A DNA stretch of 64,000 nt from Streptomyces sp. NBC_01237 (lineage in GTDB: Bacteria > Actinomycetota > Actinomycetes > Streptomycetales > Streptomycetaceae): the NCBI RefSeq assembly GCF_035917275.1, contig NZ_CP108508.1:7812001-7876000 (forward strand). Direction: 5' to 3'. Positions 43,059-64,000 of the stretch are shown here, piece after piece; position 1 is the first letter of the stretch, and every line of letters starts with the position of its first letter. A model generated the notes under the pieces. That model did not search any database, was not told the origin of the DNA, and saw only the letters and a program-made list of their open reading frames with translations. The translations under genes were made by a program, and so were the position numbers.

Positions 43059-44879
43059 TCATGCGGTCAACGAGACGTTGTAACCGCGCATCCAGCGATC
43101 CACCTCGATCAGGGGCAGCAGCAGATGCAGGTTGTCGGCCATGGTCATCATCCGGCCCTGCCCGGCGGCCAGTTCCCGCACCCTGGGCACGTCGAGCAGC
43201 CCGGCGAGCGGTGAGTCGCCGTCGTCCAGCACGGCGTCCAGCGCGGCACGGACCGTCTTGGCGTGGGCCGGCGAGAAGGTGGCGGGGTAGGCGCTCTTGC
43301 GGCGTTCGAGCACCTCGGCCGGGAGCAGGTCGGCGACAGCGGCGCGCAGCAGGCTCTTCTCCCGGCCGTCGGCGAACTTCATCTTCCAGGGCACGTTCCA
43401 CACGTACTCAAGGAGCGTGTGATCGCAGAACGGCACCCGCACCTCCAGGCCCACGGCCATGCTCATCCGGTCCTTGCGGTCCAGGAGATAGACCAGCGGC
43501 CCCTGGAGGCTCAGATACAGCACCTCGCGCATCCGGGCCTGAAGACCTGACTCGCCCGGCAGACGCGGGACACGGGCGCGGAGCGTGGCATAGCGGTCGC
43601 GTTCGTCGTCGTCCGGGCGGATCCGGGCCCGGACGTCGGGTGCCAGGCAGTCGGTGAGCCGGGGGCTGTTGCCGAGCCAGGGGAAGGTGTCACCCCAGAC
43701 GGTGTCCTGATCGAAGAACCAGGGGTACCCGCCGAACACCTCGTCGGCCGCCTCCCCGGACAGGGCGACCGTGGACCGCTCCCGGATCGCCCGGAAGAGC
43801 AGGTACATGGAGGAGTCGAACTGGCCGAGGCTGGGCGTGTCCCGGGCGAGCAGCGTCTCCGGTACGACCCCGGGGAGCGCTTCCGGGTCGAGCATGAGCG
43901 AGGTGTGCTCGACACCCAGGTGTGCGGCGGCCGCCAGGGCGAAGGGGGTGTCGCGTTCGGGGCGCAGGGCGGTGGCGCGGAAGTCGTCGTCGGCGCCCTG
44001 GAAGTCGACGGAGAAGGAGCGCAGTCCCGGCGGCTGGTGTGCGGCGGCCAGCGCGGTGATCGCCGACGAGTCCAGGCCGCCCGACAGCAGCGTGCACAGT
44101 GGCACGTCCGCTACCAGCTGGTGAACGACGACGTCCTCCAGGATTTCGCGGACCCGGGCCGCGGTGGTCGCGGTGTCGTCGTGGTGCTCCCGGCTCACCA
44201 GCCGCCAGTAGGGAGACTCGTGCCCGCCCGCCCGGTCGAAGCGCACCAGGTGGCCCGGCTGCACCTGACGCAGATCCGTGAAGGGCGTCTCCCAGGGCAT
44301 GGACAGGCGGGGGTTGAACAGAATGGGAAGCTTGTCCTCGCTGGTGCGGGCCGTGAACAGCGGGTTGGCCAGGATCGCCTTGGGTTCGGAGCCGAAGAGC
44401 AGACCCCCGTCGTAGACGTGGTAGTACAAGGGCTTCACGCCGAGCCGGTCGCGCACCAGGAGCAGTTCCTCGCGGCCGGCGTCCCAGATCGCAAAGGCGA
44501 ACATCCCCGTCAGGTGGTCGACGAAGGCCGCACCCCACTCCAGATAGGCATGCAGCAGCACCTCGGTGTCGGACACAGTCTCGAACCGGTGCCCGCGTGC
44601 CGTCAACTGGGCCCGCAGCTCACGGAAGTTGTACACCTCGCCGCTGTACGTCAGCACCACCGGCGCCCCGGTCGAGCGCGGGTGCACCACCATGGGCTGC
44701 TTGCCGCCCTCCAGGTCGACGATGGCAAGACGCCGGTGCCCGAGGGCGACGTGCGGGGCGAGCCACACTCCGTCCGAGTCCGGGCCCCGCCGGTGCAGGG
44801 AAGCTGTCATCGCCTCCACGGTCTGCCGTTCCAGGGTGAGGTCCCGGGAGAAGTCGATCCAGCCGGCAATGCCGCACAT
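43059..44879 (-). CDS. asnB: Asparagine synthetase (glutamine-hydrolysing)-like
   Basis: 606 residues with both AsnB domains. The N-terminal Ntn glutaminase begins MCGIAGW, with the catalytic cysteine right after the initiator. The synthetase domain has the ATP-pyrophosphatase loop LLSGGLDSSAI (about residue 265), ALSGEAADEVFGGYPWF and REKSLLRAA. ATG 44879 is chosen so that Cys2 is exposed after Met removal; AGGAG lies 6 nt upstream. It uses glutamine and ATP to turn a carboxylate into an amide. Among PanD, a FemAB-like transferase and DUF885, it may amidate an aspartate-like building block or the finished compound, or may be a beta-lactam-synthetase-like specialist. Plain asparagine supply is the simplest reading. 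Confidence 0.9.
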   Translation of the reverse strand: MCGIAGWIDFSRDLTLERQTVEAMTASLHRRGPDSDGVWLAPHVALGHRRLAIVDLEGGKQPMVVHPRSTGAPVVLTYSGEVYNFRELRAQLTARGHRFETVSDTEVLLHAYLEWGAAFVDHLTGMFAFAIWDAGREELLLVRDRLGVKPLYYHVYDGGLLFGSEPKAILANPLFTARTSEDKLPILFNPRLSMPWETPFTDLRQVQPGHLVRFDRAGGHESPYWRLVSREHHDDTATTAARVREILEDVVVHQLVADVPLCTLLSGGLDSSAITALAAAHQPPGLRSFSVDFQGADDDFRATALRPERDTPFALAAAAHLGVEHTSLMLDPEALPGVVPETLLARDTPSLGQFDSSMYLLFRAIRERSTVALSGEAADEVFGGYPWFFDQDTVWGDTFPWLGNSPRLTDCLAPDVRARIRPDDDERDRYATLRARVPRLPGESGLQARMREVLYLSLQGPLVYLLDRKDRMSMAVGLEVRVPFCDHTLLEYVWNVPWKMKFADGREKSLLRAAVADLLPAEVLERRKSAYPATFSPAHAKTVRAALDAVLDDGDSPLAGLLDVPRVRELAAGQGRMMTMADNLHLLLPLIEVDRWMRGYNVSLTA

Positions 44880-44900
44880 CATGCGCTCCTGGTGCAATCG

Positions 44901-46046
44901 TCAGGGAAGGTTCGGGTGGACGGCGGGCGGCTGCCGCGCGGTGTCCGGGAGGCCGGCGAGGAAGTCGTCGAAATGGACGAGGCGCTGCCCCCGCACCCCG
45001 GGACAATTCCAGCGCAGGTCGAGCCGGGGCGGACGGTCCTCGTCGTGGAAGTAGACCGCCTCGAAGCCCTGCTGCTGCCCGAACGCGAGGACGGGGTTGG
45101 CGGCCAGGAAGTCGCGGACCGACGGGCTGTCCCGGCGGACCCGCAGCATCAGCCTCTTGCCGCTGAAGTGGTTGCCGGGCAGGGCCACTTCCGGGTGCAT
45201 CTTCCGTTTGAACTGGAAGATCCCCTTGCTCAGGAACGGCTCGCACCCCGACAGGTCCACACGGGTGAGGCCGTGCTCGGCCGCCCACTGCAGGATCAGC
45301 ACGTACATCGCCAAGTAGGTGCCGGATGCGTACGCCTGATCATCGCCCCGGGCCACACCGGCCAGGCGGACGACCAGCGTCCGCCCTTCGAGCCGGCACA
45401 GCATCCCCGCCACTCGGCGGCCGGACTCGCACAGGAAGAAGAGCACCCCGCGTCGGAAGAGACACAGCAGCGCGCTGTCCCGGTCCTCCGAACGGGCGGC
45501 ATCACCGTGCCTGTTCACCATGGTCGGCCGGTGCATGCCGTCGTAGAAGAACGCGAAATCGTCCTCGCCGGCGGCCACTTCGAGCGTGCGGTGGTGGGAG
45601 CGCAGTTCGCGCGCGTGCTGCTGCCGCGCCTTGCGGGAGAGCCTGCCGAGCACGTCCTGCGGGTCGGGCCCGACCGGCACGGCCAGAGTGACCCGGAACG
45701 GCAGCAGCAGGCTGTGCCGCGGCAGCCGGGCCGGGACGCGGTCGCGCAGCATCCCGACCGCGAGGATGTCGGCACCGGGGGCGGCCCGACCGTGCAACAG
45801 GTCGGCCCACGTCGTTCCCCGCCGGGTGTGATGCGACGCCGTACCGCGCCGCTGCTCCAGGAAGGGCAGCACGTGCGTCAGGCCCTGGGGCAGACCGCCG
45901 TACGCCAGCACCGGGCCCGGCCCGTGCGACCGGGACAGCGTGACCCGGGGCCGCGCGGCGAGGACGGCGTCGGCCAGGGTGTGCGCCCGTACGACGCGAG
46001 GGTCGGCGCTGTTGTGCCAGACGTACCGCCAGGTCGGTGGGATCAC
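44901..46046 (-). CDS. GNAT/FemAB-like acyltransferase
   Basis: 381 residues with a C-terminal GNAT fold of the BioF2/FemAB-like group. The N-terminal part is GVLAY-like with a [15 protein letters not shown] strand. The central block is [17 protein letters not shown], then [19 protein letters not shown]. The acceptor half has [21 protein letters not shown] with [20 protein letters not shown], the pattern seen in transferases using aminoacyl-tRNA or acyl-CoA donors. It starts at GTG 46046, overlapping the panD stop (GTGA), so it is made stoichiometrically with the decarboxylase. It may acylate beta-alanine or another amine, or use an aminoacyl donor; substrate unknown. Confidence 0.7.
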
Positions 46047-46462
46047 CCCGCATCCACCGTGTCCCCGGCGATCAGACCGGAGCCGTCGGGAGCGGACGCG
46101 AGAGCGGCGTCGCGGCCCACGACACGGTTGTGCTCGTCCACGAACACCACGCTGGGCACGAGCTCGGCCGCGTCCTCGTCGGGCACCGTCGCGTAGGCGA
46201 TGACGATGACGAGGTCACCGTTGTGGACGAGGCGGGCCGCCGCACCGTTGACCCCGATGACGCCACTGCCGCGCGGCCCCTCGATCACATAGGTCTCTAG
46301 CCGGTTGCCGTTGTTGATGTCCACCAGGTGGACCAGCTCGCCGGGGAGCAGATCGGCGGCGTCCATCAGATCGGCGTCGACGGTGAGTGAGCCGACGTAG
46401 TTCAGATCGCACTGGGTGACCGTGGCGCGGTGGATCTTGGATTTGAGCATCGTACGGAACAT
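46043..46462 (-). CDS. panD: Aspartate 1-decarboxylase (pyruvoyl type)
   Basis: 139 residues. The proenzyme cleavage site YVGSLTVD (Gly-Ser at about 24-25) yields the pyruvoyl group. [24 protein letters not shown] and [20 protein letters not shown] are standard PanD strands. It normally makes beta-alanine from L-aspartate. The copy is translationally coupled to the FemAB-like gene and sits in the cluster, so it probably supplies a beta-amino acid here. With glutamate mutase nearby, decarboxylation of 3-methylaspartate to 3-aminoisobutyrate is another possibility. Start ATG 46462 has GAGAGG upstream. Confidence 0.93.
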
Positions 46463-46538: not shown

Positions 46539-47903
46539 CTAGGCGTGCGCGGCCGCGAGCACGACCTTGGCCAGGTCGTCCGCGGCGGACACCCGCGTGA
46601 GGTGTTCGTCCCGCAGCGGGGCGAGCAGTTCGTCGCTGTAGTAGCCGGAGGCGTGCACCACCACGTCGGTGTCCGCCGCGATCAGGCCGCGTTCACGGGC
46701 CACGAGCACCCCGGTGATCGCCTTGACCAGCGACCACTCACGGATCAGGGACGGGTCGGCGGCGATCGTGATGCCGGCGTCGACGGCGAGCGAGCGCACC
46801 TCCTCGAACTTGTCGAGGCACTCCCGGCGGGACACCACGACACCGCCGCCCCCGTGCCGGGCGACTATCTCGTTGACCTGTGTCCGGGTCGGCGGCTCCT
46901 TGGTGTAGAAGGTGGCGTCGATCACCTCCTGCGGGTGGTCCGTGACCGCGGGAAACTCTGCCGCCGTGGACTGCCGCCAGAGCCCGGACTCCTCGTCGTG
47001 GGTGTACTCGGGAACCTTCATGCCGAGCAGGCTGGTCACCATGTCAGCCGTGGCGAGCTGCTGGACCAGGAAGAACCCGGGGTGCCGGGCGGGCGACGGC
47101 AGGCCGGTCGCGCCATCGCCGAGCAGCTGGTGCCCGAGGTGGTAGCCGAGCAGACCGAAGGCGCTGGAGACGGCGTGGGCGTGGAGCCGTGGCGCCGACT
47201 GCTCGGTCACGGGCAGCAGTTCGGCCTCCACGAAGGCACGTACCGCGTCCGCGATGCGGTAGTTGTCGAGGTCCAGTGTGTACCAGATCCGGAAGCCGGT
47301 GGTGTCGAAGATCTCCGCGGCGGACCGCTCGACGACCTCACTGCTGAGCAGCTTCACATCGCCCGGCCGATCGACATCGGCGACCACCACGGGATTCGCG
47401 ATCCGCAGCGACGGCTCGGCGGTCAGCGGGCAGTCACGCAGCTTGGACCGTGACGCCTCGGGGGCGAGCATGACGATCCGCAGCTCGTCCGGCGTGGCCA
47501 GGCCGGTCTCGTAGGCGCGGGCCACCGCGTCGCGCAGCGCCGTCCCCTTGTTGCCGGACGTCGGCGTGACCAGGAGCACCCGCTCGCCGGTGCGGCGGAT
47601 GTGCGCCGCCGCGCGGGCGATCATCAGCAGCGACGCGACCGTCTTCGTCGTCCGCGCACCCGGATTGCGCATCAGATCGAGCAGGTACAGCTGCGGCCGG
47701 ACCTGGGTCAGGCCGACATCCGTGACCTCGGTGAACCTGGTGAACGCGGCTGGTTTCGCGTCCATCTCCAGAGGTATCAGCGGCGGTGGGGCGGTACGTG
47801 CGGCAGCAGTCTTGCGCGCGGCTGCCCGGATCTGCTGGAAGTACCGGTCGAGTACGTTGCGCACGACCTGGCCGTTGACGGCCGCCTGGCCCACAGCGGG
47901 CAT
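46539..47903 (-). CDS. PLP-dependent fold-type II enzyme, threonine-synthase-like (DUF6002 type)
   Basis: 454 residues. [12 protein letters not shown] (about residue 81) offers the Schiff-base lysine. [15 protein letters not shown] (about 112) is the Asn/Gly phosphate-and-substrate loop of tryptophan-synthase-beta-fold enzymes such as threonine synthase, and [13 protein letters not shown] occupies the C-terminal cofactor area. I associate this family with the DUF6002 proteins of actinobacterial biosynthetic clusters. It likely does beta- or gamma-elimination/replacement on an activated hydroxy amino acid, for example to make a dehydrobutyrate- or substituted-aminobutyrate-type residue. Start ATG 47903 has GGAG about 10 nt upstream. 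It lies between panD and the branched-chain aminotransferase, same direction. Confidence 0.7.
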
Positions 47904-47994
47904 GGAGGATCCACTCCTTCGGGAAGCTATTGGATTCGCGACGATGAGGTCGTCCACGTCGTCGATGGGCACCGAGCCCTGCCGCACGGGCGGC

Positions 47995-49089
47995 TCAGTG
48001 CGCGGCGCGGCCCGGGCCGGCCGGAGAGTGCAGCCAGCCGTCCGGATCCGGGGCCAGCCCATGGTGCAGATCGGTCAGAGCCGTGCGCAGCGCCAGCGTG
48101 ACCGGGCCCGGCTTGCCGTCCCCGATGCTCCAGGTGCTGCCGCGGTCCACGACGGTGCTGATCGGGGTGATCACGGCGGCCGTTCCGCAGGCGAACGCCT
48201 CGGACATCAGGCCCTCGTCGCACTCGGTGCGCCACTGGTCCAGGGAGACGCGCTCCTCCACCGCGGCGTAGCCGAGGCGTTCGGCCAGGGTGAGGATCGT
48301 GGTGCGCGTGACACCGGGCAGCAGGGTGCCGGTCAGTTTCGGGGTGACTACCTGCGCCTGCGCCCCCTGGCCACGGACCAGGAAGAGGTTCATGCCGCCC
48401 ATCTCCTCCAGGTAGCGCCGCTCGGCGGCGTCCAGCCAGAGGACCTGCTGGCAGCCCGCCGCTTCCGCCTGCCGCTGGGCCAGGAACGAGGGGGCGTAGT
48501 TGGCGGCCACCTTGACGTCACCGGTGCCGCCGGGGAAGGCGCGGCTGTACTCATGGCTCGCGAAGACCGAGACCGACTCGACGTCGTCACCGAAGAAGCC
48601 CCCGGCGACGAACGCCATGACCAGGAACCGGTACGTCCGCGACGGACGCAGCATGAGCGATGTGTCGGTCCCGAACATGATCGGCCGTACGTAGATGCTG
48701 TGGGCGGGATCGTCGGACAGGCTGCCCTCGTCGGCGTTGATCAGCTGGTCGATGGCCGCCACGAACGTCTCGACGGGCAGCTCGGGCATGGCGAGCCGCC
48801 GGCAGGAACGCTGGAAGCGCGCGGCATGGTCGTAGGGACGCCAGACACCCATCGAACCGTCGGCGCGCCGGTGTGCCTTAAGCCCCTCGTAGGCGACCTG
48901 ACCGTAGTGCAGGCCGATCATCCCGGGGTGGACGGACAGGTTCTGCAACGGAGTCATCCGGCCCTCGGACCAGCCCTCGCCCTCGGTCCACTCCATGCTG
49001 ATCAGGTGTTCGGTGAACGATTCGCCATGGCCGGGGTGCCGCACCACACGGCTGGAGGAGGCGATGCTCGGTTCGGATACGGCGGACAT
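47995..49089 (-). CDS. ilvE: Branched-chain amino acid aminotransferase
   Basis: 364 residues of the long (BCAT/IlvE group II) type. Landmarks are MTPLQNLSVHPGMIGLHYGQ, VAYEGLKAHRRADGS, YVRPIMFGTD, the PLP lysine in GDVKVAANYAPS (about residue 208), EEMGGMNLFLV, LLPGVTRTTIL and EAFACGTAAVITPI. It interconverts Val/Leu/Ile and their keto acids, or a branched unusual amino acid made by the pathway. Start ATG 49089 has GGAG 8 nt upstream, 27 bp after the SnoaL-like gene. A second, differently built class IV transaminase is at 39711, implying two transamination steps. Confidence 0.92.
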   Translation of the reverse strand: MSAVSEPSIASSSRVVRHPGHGESFTEHLISMEWTEGEGWSEGRMTPLQNLSVHPGMIGLHYGQVAYEGLKAHRRADGSMGVWRPYDHAARFQRSCRRLAMPELPVETFVAAIDQLINADEGSLSDDPAHSIYVRPIMFGTDTSLMLRPSRTYRFLVMAFVAGGFFGDDVESVSVFASHEYSRAFPGGTGDVKVAANYAPSFLAQRQAEAAGCQQVLWLDAAERRYLEEMGGMNLFLVRGQGAQAQVVTPKLTGTLLPGVTRTTILTLAERLGYAAVEERVSLDQWRTECDEGLMSEAFACGTAAVITPISTVVDRGSTWSIGDGKPGPVTLALRTALTDLHHGLAPDPDGWLHSPAGPGRAAH

Positions 49090-49116: not shown

Positions 49117-49491
49117 TCAGACGAGAGGGGCGAAGAAATAGGTGTCGCGGCTGGAGAAGAGGCCGTCGGGACGCACGGTGAAGCTGTCCGCGAAGCGCAG
49201 ATGCACCGGGGTGCCGTCGTGCAGCTCGCCCTGGAACTCGCCGAACGCACCGACGGTGTGACCGTCCGTGAGCAGCGTGGTCAGAGCGTGCCGGCCGGCG
49301 CGGATCGTCCGGTCCCGGCCGTAGAAGCCGCGCAGCCCCTCGGGTCCGACCATGAGGTCGTAGCCGGGCCGCCGATAGGCGGCGTCGGGGGCGAACAGAG
49401 CAGCCAGGCCGTGCACGTCTGCGCTGTCGACCAGGTCGTAGAAGCGGCGGACCGTGCGGATCGCGAGCTGTCGGTCGGGGGCGGTGGTCAC
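49117..49491 (-). CDS. SnoaL-like/NTF2-fold protein
   Basis: 124 residues, with the cone-shaped NTF2/SnoaL pattern: an RFYDLVDSADVHGLAALFAP helix pair, YRRPGYD, then LRGFYGRDR and GEFQGELHDGTPVHLRFADS sheet strands ending SSRDTYFF. Members act as small-molecule isomerases, cyclases, hydratases or binding proteins. GTG 49491 is chosen for its strong AGGAGG ribosome site 7 nt upstream. An ATG at 49524 overlapping the NRPS stop (ATGA) would add 11 residues. As the last gene of the coupled block from glutamate mutase, it probably acts on the carrier-bound or free unit loaded there; the reaction is unknown. Confidence 0.8.
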   Translation of the reverse strand: MTTAPDRQLAIRTVRRFYDLVDSADVHGLAALFAPDAAYRRPGYDLMVGPEGLRGFYGRDRTIRAGRHALTTLLTDGHTVGAFGEFQGELHDGTPVHLRFADSFTVRPDGLFSSRDTYFFAPLV

Positions 49492-49520
49492 TGTCGTACC
49501 TCCTCGATGCGGACGGGTAG

Positions 49521-52500
49521 TCATGAGTCGCCTCGGCGGCGGGCGGTCAGCGCGGGTCCGGCGGGGCGAGCCGATGCGAGCCGGCCGGCGAGGACGGCGA
49601 CCGTGGGAGCTTCGAAGACCGCCTTGATGGACAGCTCCGCCCCGAGAGCCGAGCGGATCCGGTTGATCAGCTTGGTGACGTGCAGGGAGTGACCGCCCAG
49701 GTCGAAGAAGCTGTCGTCGATGCCGACGCGGTCGATTCCGAGGACCTCGGCGAACAGGTCGCACAGGGCGGCTTCCTGCCCGGTGCGCGGTTCACGGCCG
49801 GCTTCGCGCGGAGCGACGACGGGAAGCGGCAGGGCGCGCCGATCGAGCTTGCCGGTCGCCGTCATGGGGAGCGCGTCCACCGGGACCACCGCGGACGGCA
49901 CCAGGTGGTGGGGCAGCCGTTCGGCCAGGAACGCACGGACCGCCACCGGATCCACACCACTGCCGGCCCCGGCCACGACGTATGCCACCAGACGTTTGTC
50001 GCCGGGCACGTCCTCCCGTACGACAACTGCGGTGCGCACCAGCCCCGGGTAGTCGGCCAGCGCCGACTGCACCTCGCCGGGTTCGACCCGGAAGCCGCGG
50101 ATCTTCACCTGGCCGTCGGCACGACCCAGGTACTCCATGACCCCGTCGGCCCGCCAGCGCACCAGATCACCGGTGCGGTACATGCGGTCGCCGGGCCCGC
50201 CGAAGGGGCAGGCGACGAACCGTTCGGACGTCAGGTCCGGCCGGCCGAGATACCCGTGAGCGAGCCCCACCCCGGACATGTAGAGCTCACCCACGGTCCC
50301 CGGAGCCGACAGAGCGAGGCTGTCGTCCAGCACGTACAGGCGTTTGCCGTGCAGGGGCCGCCCGACCGGGATGGAGGCCCGGGCCCCGTCCCCGGCGGCG
50401 ATCCGGTGGGCCAGGGTGAAGATCGTCGACTCGACCGGCGAGTAGCCGTTGATCAGTCGGATCTGCGGGAACTCCCGCACCAGCCGCATCACATGGTGCA
50501 CCGACGCGGCCTCCCCGCCGGTCATCACCTGCCGCAGGCCGGTGAAGGTCTCCGGGTGCTCGTCCAGCAGGAAGTTCAGCAGGCTCGCCGACACATGCAA
50601 AGTGGTGATGCCGTGCTCGCGCACGAGGGAGGCGATCACCGCAGGTTCGGGGCGCGGCCCCGGCTGGAGCACACACACGCCGCCGGAGAACAAGGCACCG
50701 AACAGTTCGAGCGCGAAGGCGTCCCAGGACACGGGCGAACACTGAAGCCACACCTGGGAGGGCTCCATGGCCGCGAAGTCCTGGCCCATCATCGTGCCGA
50801 CGATCGCGCGGTGCGCAGTGACCACGCCCTTCGGCACGCCCGTCGAGCCCGACGTGAACATCACACAGGCGGCGTCCTGCGGACCGGCACGGTGCCCGAG
50901 CCCGTGGGCCGGCCGACGGGCGATCGCCTCCGCTTCGGCGTCGAGACGCACCAGCAGGCCGGGACGCACGGACAGCCGCCCGGCGAGCTGCGTCCCGGTC
51001 ACCACGGCCCGGGCGCAGGCATGGGCGAGCAAGGCCTCCACACGAGCGACCGGCAGGCCGGGGTCGAGCATCGTGTACGTTCCGCCGGCCTTGAGCACGG
51101 CCAGCACGGCGACCACCAGCTCGATTTCGCGCTCCAGATACACCCCGACGACATCGCCGCGCTGCAACCCGGCGGCGACGAGGTGGTGGGCCAGCCGGCC
51201 GGCCCGCACGTCCAGCTCGCGATACGACAGCCGCTCCCGCTCGAAGACCAGGGCGTCGGCGTCCGGCCGCTCCGCCGCCCGCCGCTCGAACAGCTCATGC
51301 ACCAGCCGGTCCGCCGGCTGCCGTGCCGGCGAGCCGTTCCAGTCGACCAGCAAGGTCCGGCGCTCGGCGTCCGACACCACCTCCAACTGGCTCAACGGCT
51401 GATCCGCGCCGGCGAGTGCCGCCTCCACGAAACGGACCAGACGATTCGTCAGGGCGACGATCGACGATCGGTCGAACAGCTCGACGGAGTACCTCACGCA
51501 GACATCGACGCCGGCTGCGGACCCGTCCGAGCAGTGTCCCTCGGAGAGCTCCATGACGAGATCGACGGCGGCGAGGTTCAGGTCGAACACGCGTGCCTCG
51601 GCGGTCAGGCCGGCGAACTCGGCGTGCCTCGTGATGAGTTCGCCGGGGGCCAGCAGCACCTGGAAGAACGGGTGGCGGGACGGGAGGCGAGCAGGTGCCA
51701 GTTCCTCCACGAGGCGCTCGAAGGGCACGTCCTGGTGGGCGTCGGCCTTGAGGGCGGTCTTGCGGACCCGCGCGACGAGTTCACGGAACGAGGGGTCCCC
51801 GGACACATCGGTACGCAGCACAACGGTGTTGACCACTCCGGCCGCTCCTCGTTCGGGAGCGGGGGTGGTGCCCAGGGAAATGTCCGTGCCCACGCCCAGC
51901 CGGGACACCAGGCCCGCCATGGCTGCCTGGAGCACCAGGAACACCGGCACCTGATGCTCCTGCGCGAAAGCGATGAGTCGTTCGTGCGGTCCGGCCTCGA
52001 TCCGTGCCGCATGGACCGCGGCGTGCAGCGACGGCGACGCAGGGCGCGGCCGGTCGGTGGGCAGGGCCGACTCCTCGGGCAGATCGGCCAGGACACGCCG
52101 CCAGTGGGCGAGTTGCCGCGACAGCTCGCTCCGCCCGTCGGACACCGGAGCCTCACGACGCAGGTGCACATCAGGCGTGCCGCCCTGACACCGCGCGGTG
52201 TAGGCCGTGGCCAGATCGCCGAGCCACTGGCCGAGTGACCCGCGCACACCGTTCGGGTGCTGTGTCACCAACAGCACCACATGGTCCTCGGCGCTCACCG
52301 AGAACAGCTGAGCGTGCACGGACGCCTCGCCCGCTCGTACGCAGTCGCGCACGGCCGCTGCCAGTGCGTCGTGAAGGTCCTCTTCGGAGCAGTGGGACAC
52401 CGCCCGGGGGAGTCGCCATTCCGGTAAGAGGTCGGTGACCGCATCCCGCAGGGCGTCGACGTTCAACGGTCCCCGCAGCCTGATGCTCAACGGGACGGTG

Positions 52501-52571
52501 CCCTGTGGGCGGGGACCCTCCGGAAGGTCGTGAAGCCAGAGCCGGGCCTGATCGAAAGCTGGTGGAGTCAT
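49521..52571 (-). CDS. NRPS C*-A-T with disabled condensation motif
   Basis: 1016 residues. The N-terminal condensation fold keeps late motifs ([20 protein letters not shown]), but the catalytic HHxxxDG is replaced by QHPNGVRG (about residue 113), so peptide-bond formation is unlikely. The A domain is complete: [27 protein letters not shown] and a GKLDRR end. Its signature D-A-L-H-M-G-G-I-F has no confident substrate match. T has [11 protein letters not shown] (about residue 965). It starts at ATG 52571 inside the stop of the FMN gene (ATGA). The most likely role is an activation-and-loading protein for the unit made by glutamate mutase and neighbours, feeding in trans the T-E didomain or the hybrid PKS-NRPS. 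Confidence 0.88.
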
Positions 52572-53860
52572 CTGGGAATTCCCAAGGGGTAGTCGGTCAA
52601 CTGGTCGCGGGAGCCGCCGTGGGCGGGCACGGGCCACAGGTCCTCTGGCCCCAGAGAACCGGGGGTGTACTTTCCCAACGCGTGGATCAGCAGCCGGAGT
52701 TCTAAAGCCAGACAGGACACCAGACGGGACAGTCCCGCCGCCGGATCCTCATCCACGGCCACGAGCGCCGCGCGCCCGAGTCCGACCGCAGTGGCACCCA
52801 GCGCCAGGCACTTGACGGCTCGGCCGCCCTCCCACATCCGGCCGGAGGCGAGCAGGCACGCATCACGGTTCCCGATCCGGGCCAGACCTTCGCCCAGCGG
52901 CAGTCCGACCTGGCCGATCGTGGCGAGCGGGACCCAGCCGGTGCCGCCCTCCGCGCCGTCGAGGACGACGGCGTCCGCGCCGGCTTCCCAGGCGGTGGCC
53001 GCGGCGTGCGCGATGTCCCGCCCCGGATGCAGCTTCACCCACACCTTCACCCGGGGGAAGTTGTTGCGCATCAGCCGGATCTGCTGGCGCAGGATCTCCT
53101 CCGTGAAGGTCCCCGCACTGGCGGAACGCAGGACCTCGTCCGAGCCCCGGCCGAAGATCTCGTCCATCGCGAACTGCTTGTCCACCTGCGCGACGGCCGA
53201 GCGGTTCAGCAAGGCCATCCCGCCGAGGCCGGGCTTGGCTCCCTGACCGACCTTGAGCTCGAACGCCAGCCGCCCGCTGTCCAGCAGCGGCTGGGCGGAC
53301 GGGTCACTGTAGACGAGGTTCCAGACCTCGGCATCGGCGTCCTCGGTGCACTGCTGGATCGCCACCCCGCCGTATCCCTCCGGCAGTTCCTCCTGGTAGG
53401 CGGAGAGCCGGCTAAGAACACTGCGACGGCTCTGCTCACCGGCCCTGCCGTAGCCCGTCATGGGCACGATGTTTTCGCCGATGGTCATCGGGATGCCCAG
53501 GCGACCGGCTTGCCGGCCGGCGTTCAGCACCTGCTCCGTGCCGGCGGCCCTGGTCGATCCGAAGGCGGACACATAGAGCGGCAGCGTGGAGCGCAGCCCG
53601 CCGATCACCGTGTCCAGGTCCACGTCGCCGTGCAGGGGTTCCCGGCCGAGTTCGAGCAGCTTCTCCAGGCGCTGCGGCATGAACACGGGCGGAGTCAGCC
53701 GGATGCCGTCCAGGGGATCGCCGGTGCCGGCGGGCACCGGGGCCGAGCCGAAGAGGAGCTGCCCGTAGACCCGCCGGTCGGGGAAGGCAGCCGCCGTGCC
53801 CTCGCGAGCGCGTCTTCGGACCGCTTCCTCGCCGAAGCCGTGGGTGTGCAGATCGGTCAC
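52568..53860 (-). CDS. FMN-binding glutamate-synthase-like (GltB catalytic domain) protein
   Basis: 430 residues matching the TIM-barrel FMN domain of glutamate synthase/archaeal GltB2: [83 protein letters not shown] and [20 protein letters not shown]. The cysteine-rich iron-sulphur segment normally following in glutamate synthases is missing, as are the glutaminase and beta-subunit partners, so it is not ordinary nitrogen assimilation. Start GTG 53860 overlaps the aaRS-like stop (GTGA) and its end overlaps the NRPS start (ATGA). It may carry out redox or amination chemistry on the 3-methylaspartate-derived unit; this is inference. Confidence 0.78.
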
Positions 53861-54873
53861 GGCGACACCACTCCCGGCAGCTTCGGGAACGCGGACGCCT
53901 GCCAGACACTGTCGAGGCCGGCGATGTAACGGGTGAACCGCTCCAGGCCGATCCCGAAACCGGCGCTGGCGGGAATGCCCTCGCGCAGCAGGTCCAGATA
54001 CCAGCCGTACTTGGCCGGGTTCTCGCCGGTCTCCCGGATGCGGCTGACGATGCGCGTGTAGTCGTACTCCCGCTCACTGCCGCTGCACAGCTCGCCGTAC
54101 CCTTCCGGGGCCAGCAGGTCGAAGTTGCGCAGCACGCCCGGTTCGGTCTTGCTTTCACGGTCGTAGAAGCCACGTGACCCCTTCGGGTAGTCGGTGACGA
54201 ACACCGGCCGACCCAGGTGGCGGGACAGCAGCGCCTCACCCGACCATTCGATCTCGGTGCCCGTGCTCTGCACATGACCCAGTTCCCGGAGCTGCTCCAA
54301 GGCCTGAGCATGAGTCATGGTCGGAAAGGTCTGTGACACCAGCGATTCGAAGGCCGAGGGATCACGGCCCAGTGTCTTCAGCTCCGCCGGCAGATCGGCG
54401 ATCACCCGCCGCACGATCTGCCGGACCAACTGCTCCAGAACACCGGTGATCTCCTCGCGCGAGGCACCGGCCATCTCGACGTCGATCTGATGGAACTCGG
54501 CCAGGTGGCGGCTGGTGCTGGTGGTCTCCAGTGGCTCCAGGCGGACATTGGGCGCGATGCAGAAGATCTTGTCGTAGGTCAGCAGGGAGGCCTGCTTGTA
54601 GAGAATTGCACTGGTCATCAGCTTGTACCGGTGGCCGTAGAAATCCACGTCCACCTGTTTCGAACCACGGGTCCCGGGGTCGGTCACCGGGCCGATGATC
54701 GGCGGCAGCATCTCCACGAACCCGGCCGCGGTGAGGTGCTCACGGGCCGCGACCAGCATGTGCCGCTGGATGGCCAGCACGGCCCTGGTGATGTCCGAGG
54801 TGAGGTGCTGCCGGACCCGACTGGGGGACGGCAGCGGCTGCCCGAGCAGCGCGGACTGCGGAACATGCGTCAT
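53857..54873 (-). CDS. Class II aminoacyl-tRNA synthetase paralogue (AsnRS/AspRS-like, catalytic core only)
   Basis: 338 residues. The class II core is complete: MLPPIIGPVTDPGT, LMTSAILYKQASLL, the motif 2 region TSRHLAEFHQIDVEM, and motif 3 GFGIGLERFTRYIAGL. There is no N-terminal OB-fold anticodon-binding domain, so it should not charge tRNA normally. The closest architecture is the free-standing AsnRS-like asparagine synthetase (archaeal AS-AR/AsnA-like), which amidates aspartate through an aspartyl-adenylate. Coupled by 4-nt overlaps to glutamate mutase on one side and the FMN enzyme on the other, it likely activates 3-methylaspartate (or its product) as an adenylate, giving 3-methylasparagine or an ester/amide. 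Start ATG 54873. Confidence 0.8.
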   Translation of the reverse strand: MTHVPQSALLGQPLPSPSRVRQHLTSDITRAVLAIQRHMLVAAREHLTAAGFVEMLPPIIGPVTDPGTRGSKQVDVDFYGHRYKLMTSAILYKQASLLTYDKIFCIAPNVRLEPLETTSTSRHLAEFHQIDVEMAGASREEITGVLEQLVRQIVRRVIADLPAELKTLGRDPSAFESLVSQTFPTMTHAQALEQLRELGHVQSTGTEIEWSGEALLSRHLGRPVFVTDYPKGSRGFYDRESKTEPGVLRNFDLLAPEGYGELCSGSEREYDYTRIVSRIRETGENPAKYGWYLDLLREGIPASAGFGIGLERFTRYIAGLDSVWQASAFPKLPGVVSP

Positions 54874-56234
54874 GAGACGGATTCCTTCTCGTGTCGGGTT
54901 CGAATGACTCGGGAGAACGTCGCGCCGGCCAGTGCGAGCTGGTCGTAGGTGCGCTCGACGAAGGAGAGGGAGCGAAGCAGGTCGGCGGACGAGAGCCGGA
55001 CCCGGCTGTGGACCGTTCGGCGGACCGGCATCGAGCCGACGTCGCACCAGTGCAGCCGTCCCTCGCCGTCCAAGTAGCTCCGCGTGCGCCCGGCGTTGTC
55101 CGGATGCAGGCAGTACGGAACGTCCAGCAACCCCGTCGCGAACGCCTGGACCAGTGCCCCGCCGACGGAGGGGGCGAGAGCGAGAACGGCATCGATGATC
55201 GTCCGCGCCTCGTCGAGGATGCCGGTGCTCTCCCTGCCGGACGCCGTGTGCCTGACCGGTTCACGCGCGGCAGCTTGCGCGGCGAGCTCCAGGGCCGCGA
55301 CGTTCTCCGCGATGTTCGGGATCCGATGTGCCTCGGCGGAGGTCTTGACGATGAGCCGGGCTGCTCCGGTCCGCACCGCCAGACGGGCGGCGTCCTCCAG
55401 GAGCAGCGCGGCCCCGGCCGGCGTACGCGGAAACACCCCCATGTACGCATAGAGAACGATGTGCCAGTCCATGGTGCCCAGCAGCTCGTCGGCGATCGTG
55501 GCCAGAGCGGCGATCGCCTCTTCGTCCTGCGCGGCACTCGTCTGCTGCGCATAGCTCAGCGAGACGCTGCGCAGCCCGTGCTGCTTGAAGAAGAGCGCCT
55601 CCAGCACCGCCAGAGCGACCAGCAGACCGGGCGGGCACAACTGGCCCATCATGCAGCCGCCGAACGTCTCCAAGTGCGGCTCGGCGCCGGTCTCCTGGAG
55701 ACGCGCGAACATCTCGCAGCAGCGAGCCCAGTCCGCCACGGACCGCTCCAACGGGTTGCGGCTGTACGGCAGACAGTAGGAGACCGGGCCGCCCTCGGTG
55801 GCGGCCAGTCCCGCGGCCGTCAAGGCCTCGAAGATCGCGTAGGGAGATGGTGAACCGTGCCGGACCTGGATGGGAAAGTCCGGACCGGCGATCCCATCGA
55901 TGACGGCGAGCGTGGTCGCGGTGCCGTGGGCCACGATGGGGTAGCCGTTGAGCGCCACGCCCTCGGCCAGCGCGCGACGAGCGAACTCGTGGGAGTCCAG
56001 ACGGGTATAGCTGTCCAGCGTGATCGTGCCCACCGTGACCGCCTCGGCCTGCCGGGTGGCCCGCAGCCCCGAGCGCATCAGCCGCGGGTCACTCATTCCC
56101 ATCCGAGGCTGGACCACCAGATGACCGGCGCGCTGAGCGGCGTCGACGAACGCCCCGAAGGACCTGGCCGACGGCCCGGTGCCGGGCCGGTCGCCGAGAT
56201 GCGGCACGAGCCGTGCGTGCTTGCCCCCGCTCAT
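54870..56234 (-). CDS. glmE: Glutamate mutase epsilon subunit (methylaspartate mutase E)
   Basis: 454 residues, the catalytic TIM-barrel subunit. Landmarks are LVVQPRMGMSDPRLMRSGLR, VGTITLDSYTR, LNGYPIVAHGT, FPIQVRHGSPSPYAIFEAL, EGGPVSYCLPYSRN (substrate-binding arginines around) and ETFGGCMMGQLCPPGLLVAL. With the cobalamin subunit it converts L-glutamate to (2S,3S)-3-methylaspartate via adenosylcobalamin. It starts at ATG 56234 in the stop of glmS (ATGA) and ends in the aaRS-like start (ATGA). The family norm is about 480 residues. In actinobacterial clusters this pair makes the methylaspartate unit of lipopeptides (friulimicin) or the starter of vicenistatin-type macrolactams. Confidence 0.95.
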   Translation of the reverse strand: MSGGKHARLVPHLGDRPGTGPSARSFGAFVDAAQRAGHLVVQPRMGMSDPRLMRSGLRATRQAEAVTVGTITLDSYTRLDSHEFARRALAEGVALNGYPIVAHGTATTLAVIDGIAGPDFPIQVRHGSPSPYAIFEALTAAGLAATEGGPVSYCLPYSRNPLERSVADWARCCEMFARLQETGAEPHLETFGGCMMGQLCPPGLLVALAVLEALFFKQHGLRSVSLSYAQQTSAAQDEEAIAALATIADELLGTMDWHIVLYAYMGVFPRTPAGAALLLEDAARLAVRTGAARLIVKTSAEAHRIPNIAENVAALELAAQAAAREPVRHTASGRESTGILDEARTIIDAVLALAPSVGGALVQAFATGLLDVPYCLHPDNAGRTRSYLDGEGRLHWCDVGSMPVRRTVHSRVRLSSADLLRSLSFVERTYDQLALAGATFSRVIRTRHEKESVS

Positions 56235-56686
56235 CGCGTCACCCCGGACGGCAGCGACTGGACGAAGTCACGGAAGCTGACGATCCCGGCGCCCTCCTCG
56301 AAGACTGCGTCGAATCCGGCCTCGCTCAACTCCCGGACACCGCGCCCATGTTCTCCACCCGCGATGCCGAGCTTGCCCCCTATGACCATGGGGGTGGCGT
56401 GCAGTTCGGGGCAGCTGCGCAGCAGTCTCACCACGCGCTTGCCATCGACGAAGCCGTGCCCGTTGACCGTGGAGACCACGATCAGATCGGGACGCCGGGC
56501 ACGACATTCGTCGACCACCAGCTGGTCGGGCACACAGGCACCGAGGTTGGTCACCCGGTGCCCCAGCTCTTCGAGGAGGAGCTGCAGGTAGACCAGATTC
56601 CAGGTGTGAGCGTCCGAAGGCACGCTGCTGACCACGACGTCCAGGCCCGCGGTGTCGGGTGGATGCGCGTAGAACTGCAATTCCAC
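56231..56686 (-). CDS. glmS: Glutamate mutase sigma (cobalamin-binding) subunit
   Basis: 151 residues with a B12-binding Rossmann fold. SSVPSDAHTWNLVYLQLLLE supplies the axial histidine (DxH); the glycine of classical DxHxxG is Asn here (DAHTWN). GHRVTNLGACVPDQLVV, STVNGHGFVDGKRVV and VIGGKLGI are the remaining cofactor loops. It carries adenosylcobalamin for GlmE. GTG 56686 (32 nt after the CCR stop) is chosen because the domain starts with VELQFYAHPP; the frame also opens at 56767 inside CCR, but that N-terminus has no domain meaning. The GGGA ribosome site is weak. Confidence 0.93.
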   Translation of the reverse strand: MELQFYAHPPDTAGLDVVVSSVPSDAHTWNLVYLQLLLEELGHRVTNLGACVPDQLVVDECRARRPDLIVVSTVNGHGFVDGKRVVRLLRSCPELHATPMVIGGKLGIAGGEHGRGVRELSEAGFDAVFEEGAGIVSFRDFVQSLPSGVTR

Positions 56687-56717
56687 AGTCGTTTCCCGTC
56701 GAACGGCTTGACCTGAA

Positions 56718-57950
56718 CTAATTGCTTGCACCGACCAGTGCGGCGACATTGCCCGGTGCTTGTACACCTTCCATGAGGTGCTGATGGGCCTGGCCGATCT
56801 GGTCGAAGGTGTAGGTATGGCCGAGATGAGGAGGAAGAAGGCCCATGTCGACCAGACGTGTTACGGCCTGGCATTCTCGTGGATTGGCGAAATGAGAGCC
56901 CTGGAGCCGCTTCTGCCGCATCCAGAGATATCTGAGGTCGACGTCGACATTGAAGCCGGACGTGGCACCGCAGATCACGATCATCCCACCCGGGGCGCAC
57001 ACGAAAACCGACGTCGGTATGGTGTCGCTGCCAGGATGTTCGAACACTATCTTGGGAGACGCCTTTTCGCCAAGAATATTCCAGATCTCCCGCCCGAAGG
57101 CCCGCAGGTCCGCCGCCCACCGATTGTGTTCCTCGGTACCGGCCGGCGGCACGCGGCCCCAATGCTGGTATACGGTCCGGTCGATGACTCCCACGGCGCC
57201 CAACTCCAGGCAGTATTTGGCCTTCTCTGGAGACGACACCACCGCGATGGGTCTTCCTCCCATCTGGAGCGTCAAGGAGATGGCCATCGAGCCGAGTCCG
57301 CCGGACCCGCCCCAGATGAGAACCGTGTCCCCGGGCTGCACCGTGTTGGGCGGCCAGCCGTTGAGCTGCCGGTACGCAGTAGCACCGGTGAGGAGGTACC
57401 CCGCAGCCTCCGCCCAGTCGAGCCTGCTGGGCTTGGGCAGGCACTGGAACTCTGCCACCAGTGTGAACTGGGCGAACGAGCCCCAGTTCAGCTCGTACCC
57501 CCATACCTGCTGCGACGCCGCGAGCATGGGATCGACGCCCAGCCGGACGTCGGGGTCGTCCTCGTCCCACCGGCAGCCGGAGAGTACGACCTCGTCGCCC
57601 ACCTTGACTCGTCGTACGCCGGATCCGACTTTCCAGACGATGCCGGAGCCCTCCGAACCGCCGATGTGAAACGGCTCGTTGCTTCCTTGCTTCTGGCGCA
57701 TCGCGACGACGTCGACGGGCTTGCCCTTGGCGGCCCAGACATTATTGAAGTTGATTCCGGCGGCCATGACCGCTACCAGAACGAATCCCGGCGGAACCTC
57801 GGGGGTGTCGACGACTTCCGTCCGGAATGCCGTTTCAGGATCGCCGTACCGCTCGGGACGAATCACCGACGCGTACATGGAGCGGGGGACGGCCCCGAGT
57901 GGGGGCAGATCCCCCACCTCGTACAGAGTGCTGGTGTTCGAGGAGTTCAA
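56718..57950 (-). CDS. ccr: Crotonyl-CoA carboxylase/reductase
   Basis: 410 residues, MDR-superfamily CCR: MYASVIRPERYGDPETAF, FVLVAVMAAGINFNNVWAA, FHIGGSEGSGIVW, the NADPH loop IWGGSGGLGSMAISL, and FEHPGSDTIPTSVFVCAPGG with VDLRYLWMRQKRLQGSHF in the C-terminal CO2/acyl-binding part. It reductively carboxylates crotonyl-CoA (or a longer 2-enoyl-CoA) to ethylmalonyl-CoA (or alkylmalonyl-CoA), a PKS extender unit. The start is TTG 57950, with AGGAG 6 nt upstream. It lies 46 bp after the hybrid PKS-NRPS, whose AT has an ethylmalonyl-like motif. It is slightly shorter at the N-terminus than some primary-metabolism CCRs (about 445). Confidence 0.93.
   Translation of the reverse strand: MNSSNTSTLYEVGDLPPLGAVPRSMYASVIRPERYGDPETAFRTEVVDTPEVPPGFVLVAVMAAGINFNNVWAAKGKPVDVVAMRQKQGSNEPFHIGGSEGSGIVWKVGSGVRRVKVGDEVVLSGCRWDEDDPDVRLGVDPMLAASQQVWGYELNWGSFAQFTLVAEFQCLPKPSRLDWAEAAGYLLTGATAYRQLNGWPPNTVQPGDTVLIWGGSGGLGSMAISLTLQMGGRPIAVVSSPEKAKYCLELGAVGVIDRTVYQHWGRVPPAGTEEHNRWAADLRAFGREIWNILGEKASPKIVFEHPGSDTIPTSVFVCAPGGMIVICGATSGFNVDVDLRYLWMRQKRLQGSHFANPRECQAVTRLVDMGLLPPHLGHTYTFDQIGQAHQHLMEGVQAPGNVAALVGASN

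Positions 57951-57996: not shown

Positions 57997-64000
<6,004 letters not shown>

Follow-up and report, generated by a model that had tools for sequence, protein, structure and literature searches.

A putative streptolydigin-type 3-methylasparagine supply-and-loading cassette in Streptomyces sp. NBC_01237, with a candidate SnoaL/aminotransferase pair for C-beta epimerisation

The window considered here is a 64,000-nucleotide stretch of Streptomyces sp. NBC_01237, 7.81-7.88 Mb of contig C1 in a 10.19-Mb genome, and our subject is a compact run of genes within it that appears to make and load a methylated amino acid. The genes of this run and those next to it all lie on the minus strand. Read in the direction of transcription, the run begins with a glmS-like gene for the B12-binding subunit of glutamate mutase (56231..56686, with an alternative upstream start at 56767; PF02310, 50.9 bits) and a glmE-like gene for the catalytic subunit (54870..56234; 303.8 bits to Pfam MutE, PF06368, above that family's cut-off). 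It continues with an AsnA-like gene of SlgZ type, whose product resembles the catalytic core of asparaginyl-tRNA synthetase (AsnRS; 53857..54873), a gene of SlgE3 type for a GltB-like flavin mononucleotide (FMN)-domain protein (52568..53860), a nonribosomal peptide synthetase (NRPS) gene for a degenerate condensation, an adenylation and a carrier domain (C*-A-T; 49521..52571; Condensation, AMP-binding and PP-binding matches), a SnoaL/NTF2-like gene (49117..49524; SnoaL_2, PF12680, 55.5 bits) and a branched-chain-aminotransferase homologue (47995..49089; NF009897, 388.2 bits against a cut-off of 307). The preliminary description, made from the letters alone, had reported that the first five genes are joined by successive start-stop overlaps and followed by a SnoaL-like gene, and this is confirmed in the sequence: ATGA for glmS/glmE (56231-56234) and glmE/AsnA-like (54870-54873), GTGA for AsnA-like/GltB-like (53857-53860) and ATGA for GltB-like/NRPS (52568-52571). 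A fifth overlap, absent from its list, is the ATGA of NRPS/SnoaL (49521-49524), although a later GTG start is possible for SnoaL; a gap of 27 bp then separates SnoaL from the aminotransferase gene.

The supply enzymes can be taken in order. GlmS of the window has the motif DAHTWN, whose His we take to be the cobalamin ligand, and D[AS]H[TMN]WN is kept in 72 of 76 copies, one from each of 75 related loci and one from the second pair of this genome; in the remaining four the alignment begins inside or after the D-x-H motif. That second glmS-glmE pair (L007; contig C2, ~1157-1158 kb) adjoins an adenylation (A) domain of code DLTKLGVVN, presumably an Asp-type code, with no AsnA or GltB gene within the 20 kb read; the code fits the use of plain 3-methylaspartate, as expected. 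The AsnA-like protein (338 residues, without a separate anticodon domain) scores above the cut-off of NF005052 ‘asparagine synthetase A’ (447.8 against 368 bits), and its structural matches are AsnRS and archaeal AsnA (PDB 1x54 and 3p8t), with which it shares the same class II catalytic core; unlike archaeal AsnA, it belongs to an actinobacterial branch found within a glutamate-mutase operon. Because R111, E113, R122, E126 and R312, presumably the class II motif 2 and 3 residues, are invariant across 24 aligned AsnA-like sequences (window included), the protein should still form an aminoacyl adenylate. Its substrate is probably 3-methylaspartate. It had been proposed that this AsnRS-like core activates the unit for loading in the manner of an aminoacyl-tRNA synthetase. 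The class II core stands, but the loading role is not supported, since an enzyme that passes for asparagine synthetase A would be expected to amidate; we reject an undescribed synthetase-type loading because of that cut-off and because SlgZ is a described counterpart. The GltB-like protein matches glutamate synthase in the FMN part alone (PF01645, 78.7 bits, plus FMN_dh). It has no glutaminase domain, and the motif C-x5-C-x4-C, which we take to be the 3Fe-4S cysteine motif of glutamate synthase (GltS), occurs in 0 of 24 aligned sequences, the window's among them, which bears out the earlier remark that the iron-sulphur segment is lacking; both features that would mark a glutamate synthase are therefore missing. 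A PHROGs scan of this protein gave no match. Elsewhere in the genome each of the two proteins has a single further match, 31% identical over part of its length for the AsnA-like and 33% over part for the GltB-like protein (32-33 bits).

These families have already been described together. For streptolydigin, SlgE1-E2-E3 are assigned to 3-methylaspartate supply, SlgE3 being named as glutamate supply, and SlgZ is called ‘asparaginyl-tRNA synthetase-like’ (PMC5357945), while the substrate of SlgN1 is tabulated as (2S,3S)-3-methyl-Asp (PMC11253843). SlgN1 itself is found at locus L057 of S. lydicus ISP-5461, as a 567-residue MbtH-A protein that aligns end-to-end with PDB 4gr5 at 1273 bits, and the proteins of this locus are 66% (AsnA), 61% (GltB), 60% (GlmE), 64% (GlmS) and 57% (A domain) identical to those of the window. 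Since L057 and the printed streptolydigin set (slgE1-slgE2-slgE3-slgZ-slgN1) hold the same families at one locus, the window's string, in which glutamate mutase S and E subunits, an AsnRS-like and a GltB-like protein are all present, is a member of the described streptolydigin-type set in another gene order, and its chemistry is mostly not undescribed. The claim that the string follows no standard route is accordingly not supported. There are differences: in L057 glmE and glmS lie on the opposite strand from AsnA and GltB whereas the window has all on one strand, SlgN1 is MbtH-A without a carrier whereas the window NRPS is C*-A-T, the A code is DALQIGGGF in L057 and DALHMGGIF in the window, and in the S. 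lydicus genome no SnoaL was found and the sole aminotransferase match is 48% identical.

The search for the gene string in other genomes, which had been suggested as a check, bears on both the association and its meaning. Among 298 pattern matches in a species-level collection, 239 were confirmed as AsnA-like relatives, and 80 loci were kept; 78 of these have GltB-like, 76 GlmE and 75 GlmS genes, and 75 have the complete set of four, the S. lydicus SlgN1 locus included. The window's gene order and strand recur in 70 of the 75 complete loci, and the five incomplete ones are L034 and L054, on ~4-kb contigs, and L072, L078 and L084, of 13-15 kb. The association of the cassette genes exceeds chance. 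Among loci in which the two genes concerned follow each other in this order on the plus strand, an in-frame start permitting a 4-bp overlap is found at the AsnA-GltB junction in 69/78 related loci and at the GlmE-AsnA junction in 39/72. In a draw on the genus, an AsnA-like protein at E <= 1e-140 occurs in 26/392 genomes, and in a class-wide draw, at E <= 1e-120, in 5/364 (own genome counted in both). Nor are such strings confined to clusters whose product lacks a methylaspartate-derived part, the tetramic acid of streptolydigin being derived from 3-methylaspartate. As observations apart, Kibdelosporangium banguiense has three cassette copies in one genome (L018, L035, L089), and in the metagenome protein P0155 the C-terminal part of MutE is fused to an AsnA-like protein. 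We know of no AsnA-like step in the methylaspartate routes of vicenistatin or cryptophycin. Those routes, of VinN and CrpG, share the 3-methylaspartate building block with the window, but there it serves as a beta-amino acid or is decarboxylated (PMC11253843, PMC7459860). A ‘MeAsn’ residue has been reported for the lipopeptins (PMC10172682).

The NRPS gene indicates what is loaded. Its condensation domain has TQHPNGV in place of HHxxxDG, whereas the neighbouring polyketide synthase (PKS)-NRPS has HHIVSDG. The A domain matches SlgN1 (4gr5) at 561.7 bits, and the five chains that outscore 4gr5 come from gramicidin synthase, each being matched over two stretches (in one, 292 and 285 bits). A methylaspartate-derived unit that is made, converted and loaded, as first suggested, is supported, and the A domain belongs with SlgN1. 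Its code is DALHMGGIF, at specificity positions presumably those of the usual scheme; codes were obtained by pairwise alignment, so that reads for distant domains vary, and two domains of the left-hand cluster gave differing reads. In a tree of 67 A domains the SlgN1-like family forms one clade (100/100); DALQ/DGLQ domains (the Q set) group with DATK/DATD/DATE (96/91), DALH/DALY domains (the H set) group with DGLY/DGLF (87/95), and DGLW/DALW branch deeper. By comparison with Val-type codes, position 278 would point to a polar side chain where it is His or Gln and to an aliphatic one where it is Trp. Some H-set clusters have several such domains: in G268 a run of seven reads DALH-DALY-DALH-DGLW-DALH-DATK-DVWH, four of them DALH/DALY (L192-L194), where DVWH is presumably a Ser code and DATK possibly takes an un-epimerised or acid form, and an NRPS run in G404 holds three DALH/DALY domains (L202-L203).

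The H set is accompanied by the SnoaL/aminotransferase pair. Reportedly the isomerase of allo-isoleucine biosynthesis (desotamide, marformycin) is a small SnoaL/NTF2-type protein. In the described route to L-allo-Ile an aminotransferase acts with an isomerase to take the protons from C-alpha and C-beta of pyridoxal-phosphate-bound Ile (PMC7459860). The window's branched-chain aminotransferase and the SnoaL/NTF2-like protein that it adjoins look like such a pair; compared by description, the two pairs are alike in having an aminotransferase and a separate isomerase, and differ in that the window type is linked to glutamate mutase genes. The reading of SnoaL as a polyketide cyclase is disfavoured, because it adjoins the aminotransferase in many relatives. 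Among the DALH/DALY genomes (the window, L011, which is partial, L017, L020, L040, L052, L069, L079, L082, L087, L090 and L030/G423; L052, L017 and L087 are also G202, G238 and G082, one genome each), SnoaL and the signature aminotransferase described below occur in 12/12 and are adjacent in 8; in L011, L017 and L040 the pair is on another draft contig than the cassette. An adjacent pair was found in 0/21 DALQ/DGLQ genomes, the aminotransferase being sought genome-wide in 7 and within 10 kb in 14, and in the former the only matches were 46-51% identical, besides a split one in L088. The genome-wide search for SnoaL covered 70 of the 80 loci, counting in two further Kibdelosporangium copies that lie in one searched genome. 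SnoaL matches above 100 bits in G334, G173 and G086, where the stretch retrieved showed no aminotransferase, were not taken as pairs. The association of pair and code gives 2.8e-9 in Fisher's test, with the reservation that kinship among the genomes violates independence. Within the draw on the genus the pair or the special aminotransferase is present in 6/26 genomes with an AsnA-like protein and 7/366 without (p = 5.9e-5), one of the seven, G170, resting on an 84-residue match. In Actinosynnema sp. ALI-1.44 (L028, 11037-12629) an open frame that follows GltB contains SnoaL, with no adjacent aminotransferase.

The aminotransferase itself has a pocket signature. An AlphaFold model (mean predicted local distance difference test score 78.2) searched with Foldseek confirms the branched-chain-aminotransferase fold, the protein also matches PDB 3dtf, and the window residues at issue are H21, L48, H54, M146 and G167. 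In the tree the aminotransferases of cassette genomes form an 18-row clade (100/97; the rows G305 and G417 are identical, with the same coordinates in one genome), sister to 6 of 7 free-standing rows, the seventh, G317, lying near the housekeeping rows; G408a was counted as free-standing, no cassette gene being present in the 11 kb read around it, and the short G170 match was dropped. Within the clade H21 is found in 17/18 (Tyr in one), H54 in 18/18 and M146 in 18/18, whereas all three are absent from the free-standing rows (7, one of them not covering position 21) and the housekeeping rows (12), where the residues are F, S/N/D and A/G. The Phe at the position of residue 21, as in enzymes specific for branched-chain amino acids, is present in 6/7 free-standing rows (one not covered) and 12/12 housekeeping rows. 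Window residue 21 aligns with a Phe of 3dtf (chain position 35), which we take to be equivalent to Phe30 of human mitochondrial branched-chain aminotransferase. Phe30 of the human enzyme, and of yeast Bat2, is placed in or near the substrate pocket (PMC6957111, PMC9275217). Four rows (G414, G417, G423, G437) were found via SnoaL alone and then showed the signature, and Nonomuraea solani (G408) has two pairs, the cassette-side one with the signature and the other without. No glutamate mutase match was found in the stretches read around the free-standing pairs of G347, G355, G365, G317, G096 and G170.

A further genome separates the mutase from the amidating enzyme. In a class-wide draw on the aminotransferase only 2 of 364 genomes had a match, the present one and G527, in which an operon glmS-glmE-aminotransferase-SnoaL-NRPS (C1, ~393-397 kb; L232-L237) encodes an aminotransferase with Tyr21, Phe48, His54, Met146 and Gly167. 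No AsnA-like or GltB-like match was found in the 120 kb read, and none to AsnA at E <= 1e-120 in the genome, weaker ones outside the 120 kb not having been sought. The idea that the signature aminotransferase comes only with AsnA is broken by this case. G527 was a hit not chosen by AsnA and has the pair directly behind glmS-glmE, so that the pair appears to go with the mutase and not with AsnA; the case suggests that the pair can work without AsnA. The five closely related A domains in a row in this genome (code DxLWMGGIF) would accept either the epimer without the amide or a residue with an aliphatic side chain.

From these results the following pathway can be proposed. GlmS/GlmE would convert L-glutamate to (2S,3S)-3-methylaspartate, as is established for the family. 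The AsnA-like protein would then use ATP and ammonia to turn 3-methylaspartate into 3-methylasparagine; the equilibrium of glutamate mutase is unfavourable, and amidation would also pull it. The GltB-like protein, by analogy with SlgE3, would keep up the supply of glutamate or ammonia. SnoaL and the aminotransferase would invert C-beta of 3-methylasparagine, and the C*-A-T protein would adenylate the product, hold it on its own carrier and, since its condensation domain lacks the catalytic motif, pass it in trans to the PKS-NRPS line. Comparing 16 H-type with 21 Q-type rows (L021, L016, L022 and L046 being assigned to H by the pair, not the code), the positions that separate the two are 1, weak, in AsnA, 0 in GltB and 0 in GlmE, for which reason we place epimerisation after amidation; the substrate that reaches AsnA is probably identical in the two kinds of cluster, on what is weak negative evidence. 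It is quite likely that the cassette is of the known kind and supplies and loads 3-methylasparagine, or 3-methylaspartate; 3-methylasparagine, one of the two products first guessed, is the best candidate. That the pair is a polar-pocket branch of the allo-Ile type which epimerises C-beta of the mutase product, to yield the diastereomer of 3-methylasparagine (or of 3-methylaspartate where AsnA is absent) that the DALH/DALY lineage loads, is put forward tentatively, as a proposal that could well fail. The composite reading, a streptolydigin-type cassette for 3-methylasparagine with epimerisation before loading, we hold by a slender preference on sequence evidence. No description of such a pair for 3-methylasparagine was found in the literature searched, which omits most subscription journals. 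The less familiar chemistry probably lies in the aminotransferase, just outside the interval of the preliminary description (49117 to 57950) and unmentioned there.

Several observations weigh against this composite reading. GlmS falls under the NCBIfam MutS cut-offs (47.7 against 110 and 40.5 against 135.8 bits) and GlmE under that of TIGR01503 (176.3 against 390.1 bits). The SnoaL tree fails to separate the groups, SnoaL and the aminotransferase are apart in G404-G406 (Lentzea; close kin that make up three of the twelve H/Y genomes) and in G407, where SnoaL is moreover weak (64 bits), the count of pairs in Q-code genomes includes a genome-wide aminotransferase search for 7 of the 21, and L028, L029 and L041 (Q codes) have SnoaL above 100 bits and no adjacent aminotransferase. 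The five G527 domains stand in a genome where AsnA was not seen, G268 and similar H-code clusters include DGLW codes that could accept allo-Ile, and Amycolatopsis domains of code DAFFYGAIF lie near the H set and come without SnoaL. Finally, the A codes of the window's PKS-NRPS line (DVENVGAVT, DAFTIGGVC and, doubtfully, DSIMKCT-G, from the right-hand cluster and 40 kb upstream) belong to three domains that group with Stackebrandtia domains of Ile/Val-like code (DAFFLGVTF/DAWFMGGTF), because of which the window may hold an aliphatic customer for the pair.

That last point also speaks for the alternative in which the cassette makes 3-methylasparagine as in streptolydigin while the pair separately makes allo-isoleucine for another module. 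The described pair does convert Ile to allo-Ile (PMC7459860), and G268, G404 and G527 have Trp-type codes near the pair that could accept aliphatic residues. However, the signature and free-standing enzymes differ at the pocket-Phe position, the G527 pair stands directly behind glmE, L024 has a Trp-type code and the cassette with no SnoaL above 28 bits, and neither DALHMGGIF nor the three codes of the window's line (the last doubtful) are standard for Ile or Val; we regard separate allo-Ile formation as unlikely, though the most serious of the rivals. Less probable still is epimerisation before amidation, in which AsnA would receive (2S,3R)-3-methylaspartate and PanD possibly turn it into 3-amino-2-methylpropionate. 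The G527 pair, with glmS-glmE and with AsnA and GltB not seen, suits this order, as do the PanD-like CrpG, which prefers (2S,3R)-3-methylaspartate (PMC7459860), and the presence of one of the genome's two panD copies in this cluster, but AsnA shows only the one weak H-versus-Q position and none of the 80 related loci has panD. It is improbable that the GltB-like protein performs redox chemistry on the methylaspartate unit, as the chemical alteration first suggested could be read, to give a modified nitrogenous residue: the protein is kept in 78/80 loci even though the defining parts of a glutamate synthase are missing from it, but the streptolydigin locus L057 has it as well, and the residue there reportedly ends as an ordinary methylated amide. 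SlgE3, as already noted, is printed as glutamate supply (PMC5357945).

If the pair does act on the mutase product, it would show how a C-beta epimerase for aliphatic substrates evolves into one for polar substrates, and would give enzymatic access to the other diastereomer of 3-methyl-Asn/Asp; clusters such as that of G268 would predict peptides unusually rich in beta-methylasparagine. The results suggest a sequence-based rule to predict whether an actinobacterial NRPS cluster uses 3-methylasparagine, and in which diastereomeric form; 239 stretches of the species-level collection encode an AsnA-like relative. Within the known pathway, a ‘glutamate synthase’ so widely kept without Fe-S motif or glutaminase part is a puzzle of its own.

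The neighbouring genes complete the picture. A crotonyl-CoA carboxylase/reductase for PKS extender supply (56718..57950; TIGR01751, 564.6 bits against a cut-off of 378.55) falls within the interval of the preliminary description, which did not mention it, and is probably an upstream neighbour outside the amino-acid cassette. Beyond it, in the same cluster and extending past the window, is a PKS-NRPS (57997..63999; ketosynthase-acyltransferase-carrier-condensation-A-carrier-thioesterase) whose A code is the DVENVGAVT given above. Two upstream A domains (L008) are 75% and 66% identical to the A domain of this protein (58000-63999) with very different codes, which hints at exchange of specificity regions among the A domains of the line. 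After the aminotransferase the order is DUF6002, PanD, a GNAT-like protein, AsnB and DUF885: the DUF6002 protein is at 46539..48062 (start uncertain; PF19465, 518.4 bits), the PanD-like aspartate 1-decarboxylase at 46043..46462 (PF02261/TIGR00223) and the AsnB-type glutamine-dependent amidotransferase at 43059..44897. The PanD-like product could be beta-alanine or 3-amino-2-methylpropionate. In G096 (L188-L189) the free-standing pair of aminotransferase and SnoaL has a PanD of 77% identity beside it, and the 40 kb read there gave no match to glutamate mutase. The left side of the window (6832-36310) holds a lipopeptide-like set of a reducing PKS, ketoacyl synthase III (KAS III), five A domains and a thioesterase, with two DFWNVGMVH codes and one DAYWWGGTF among its A codes.

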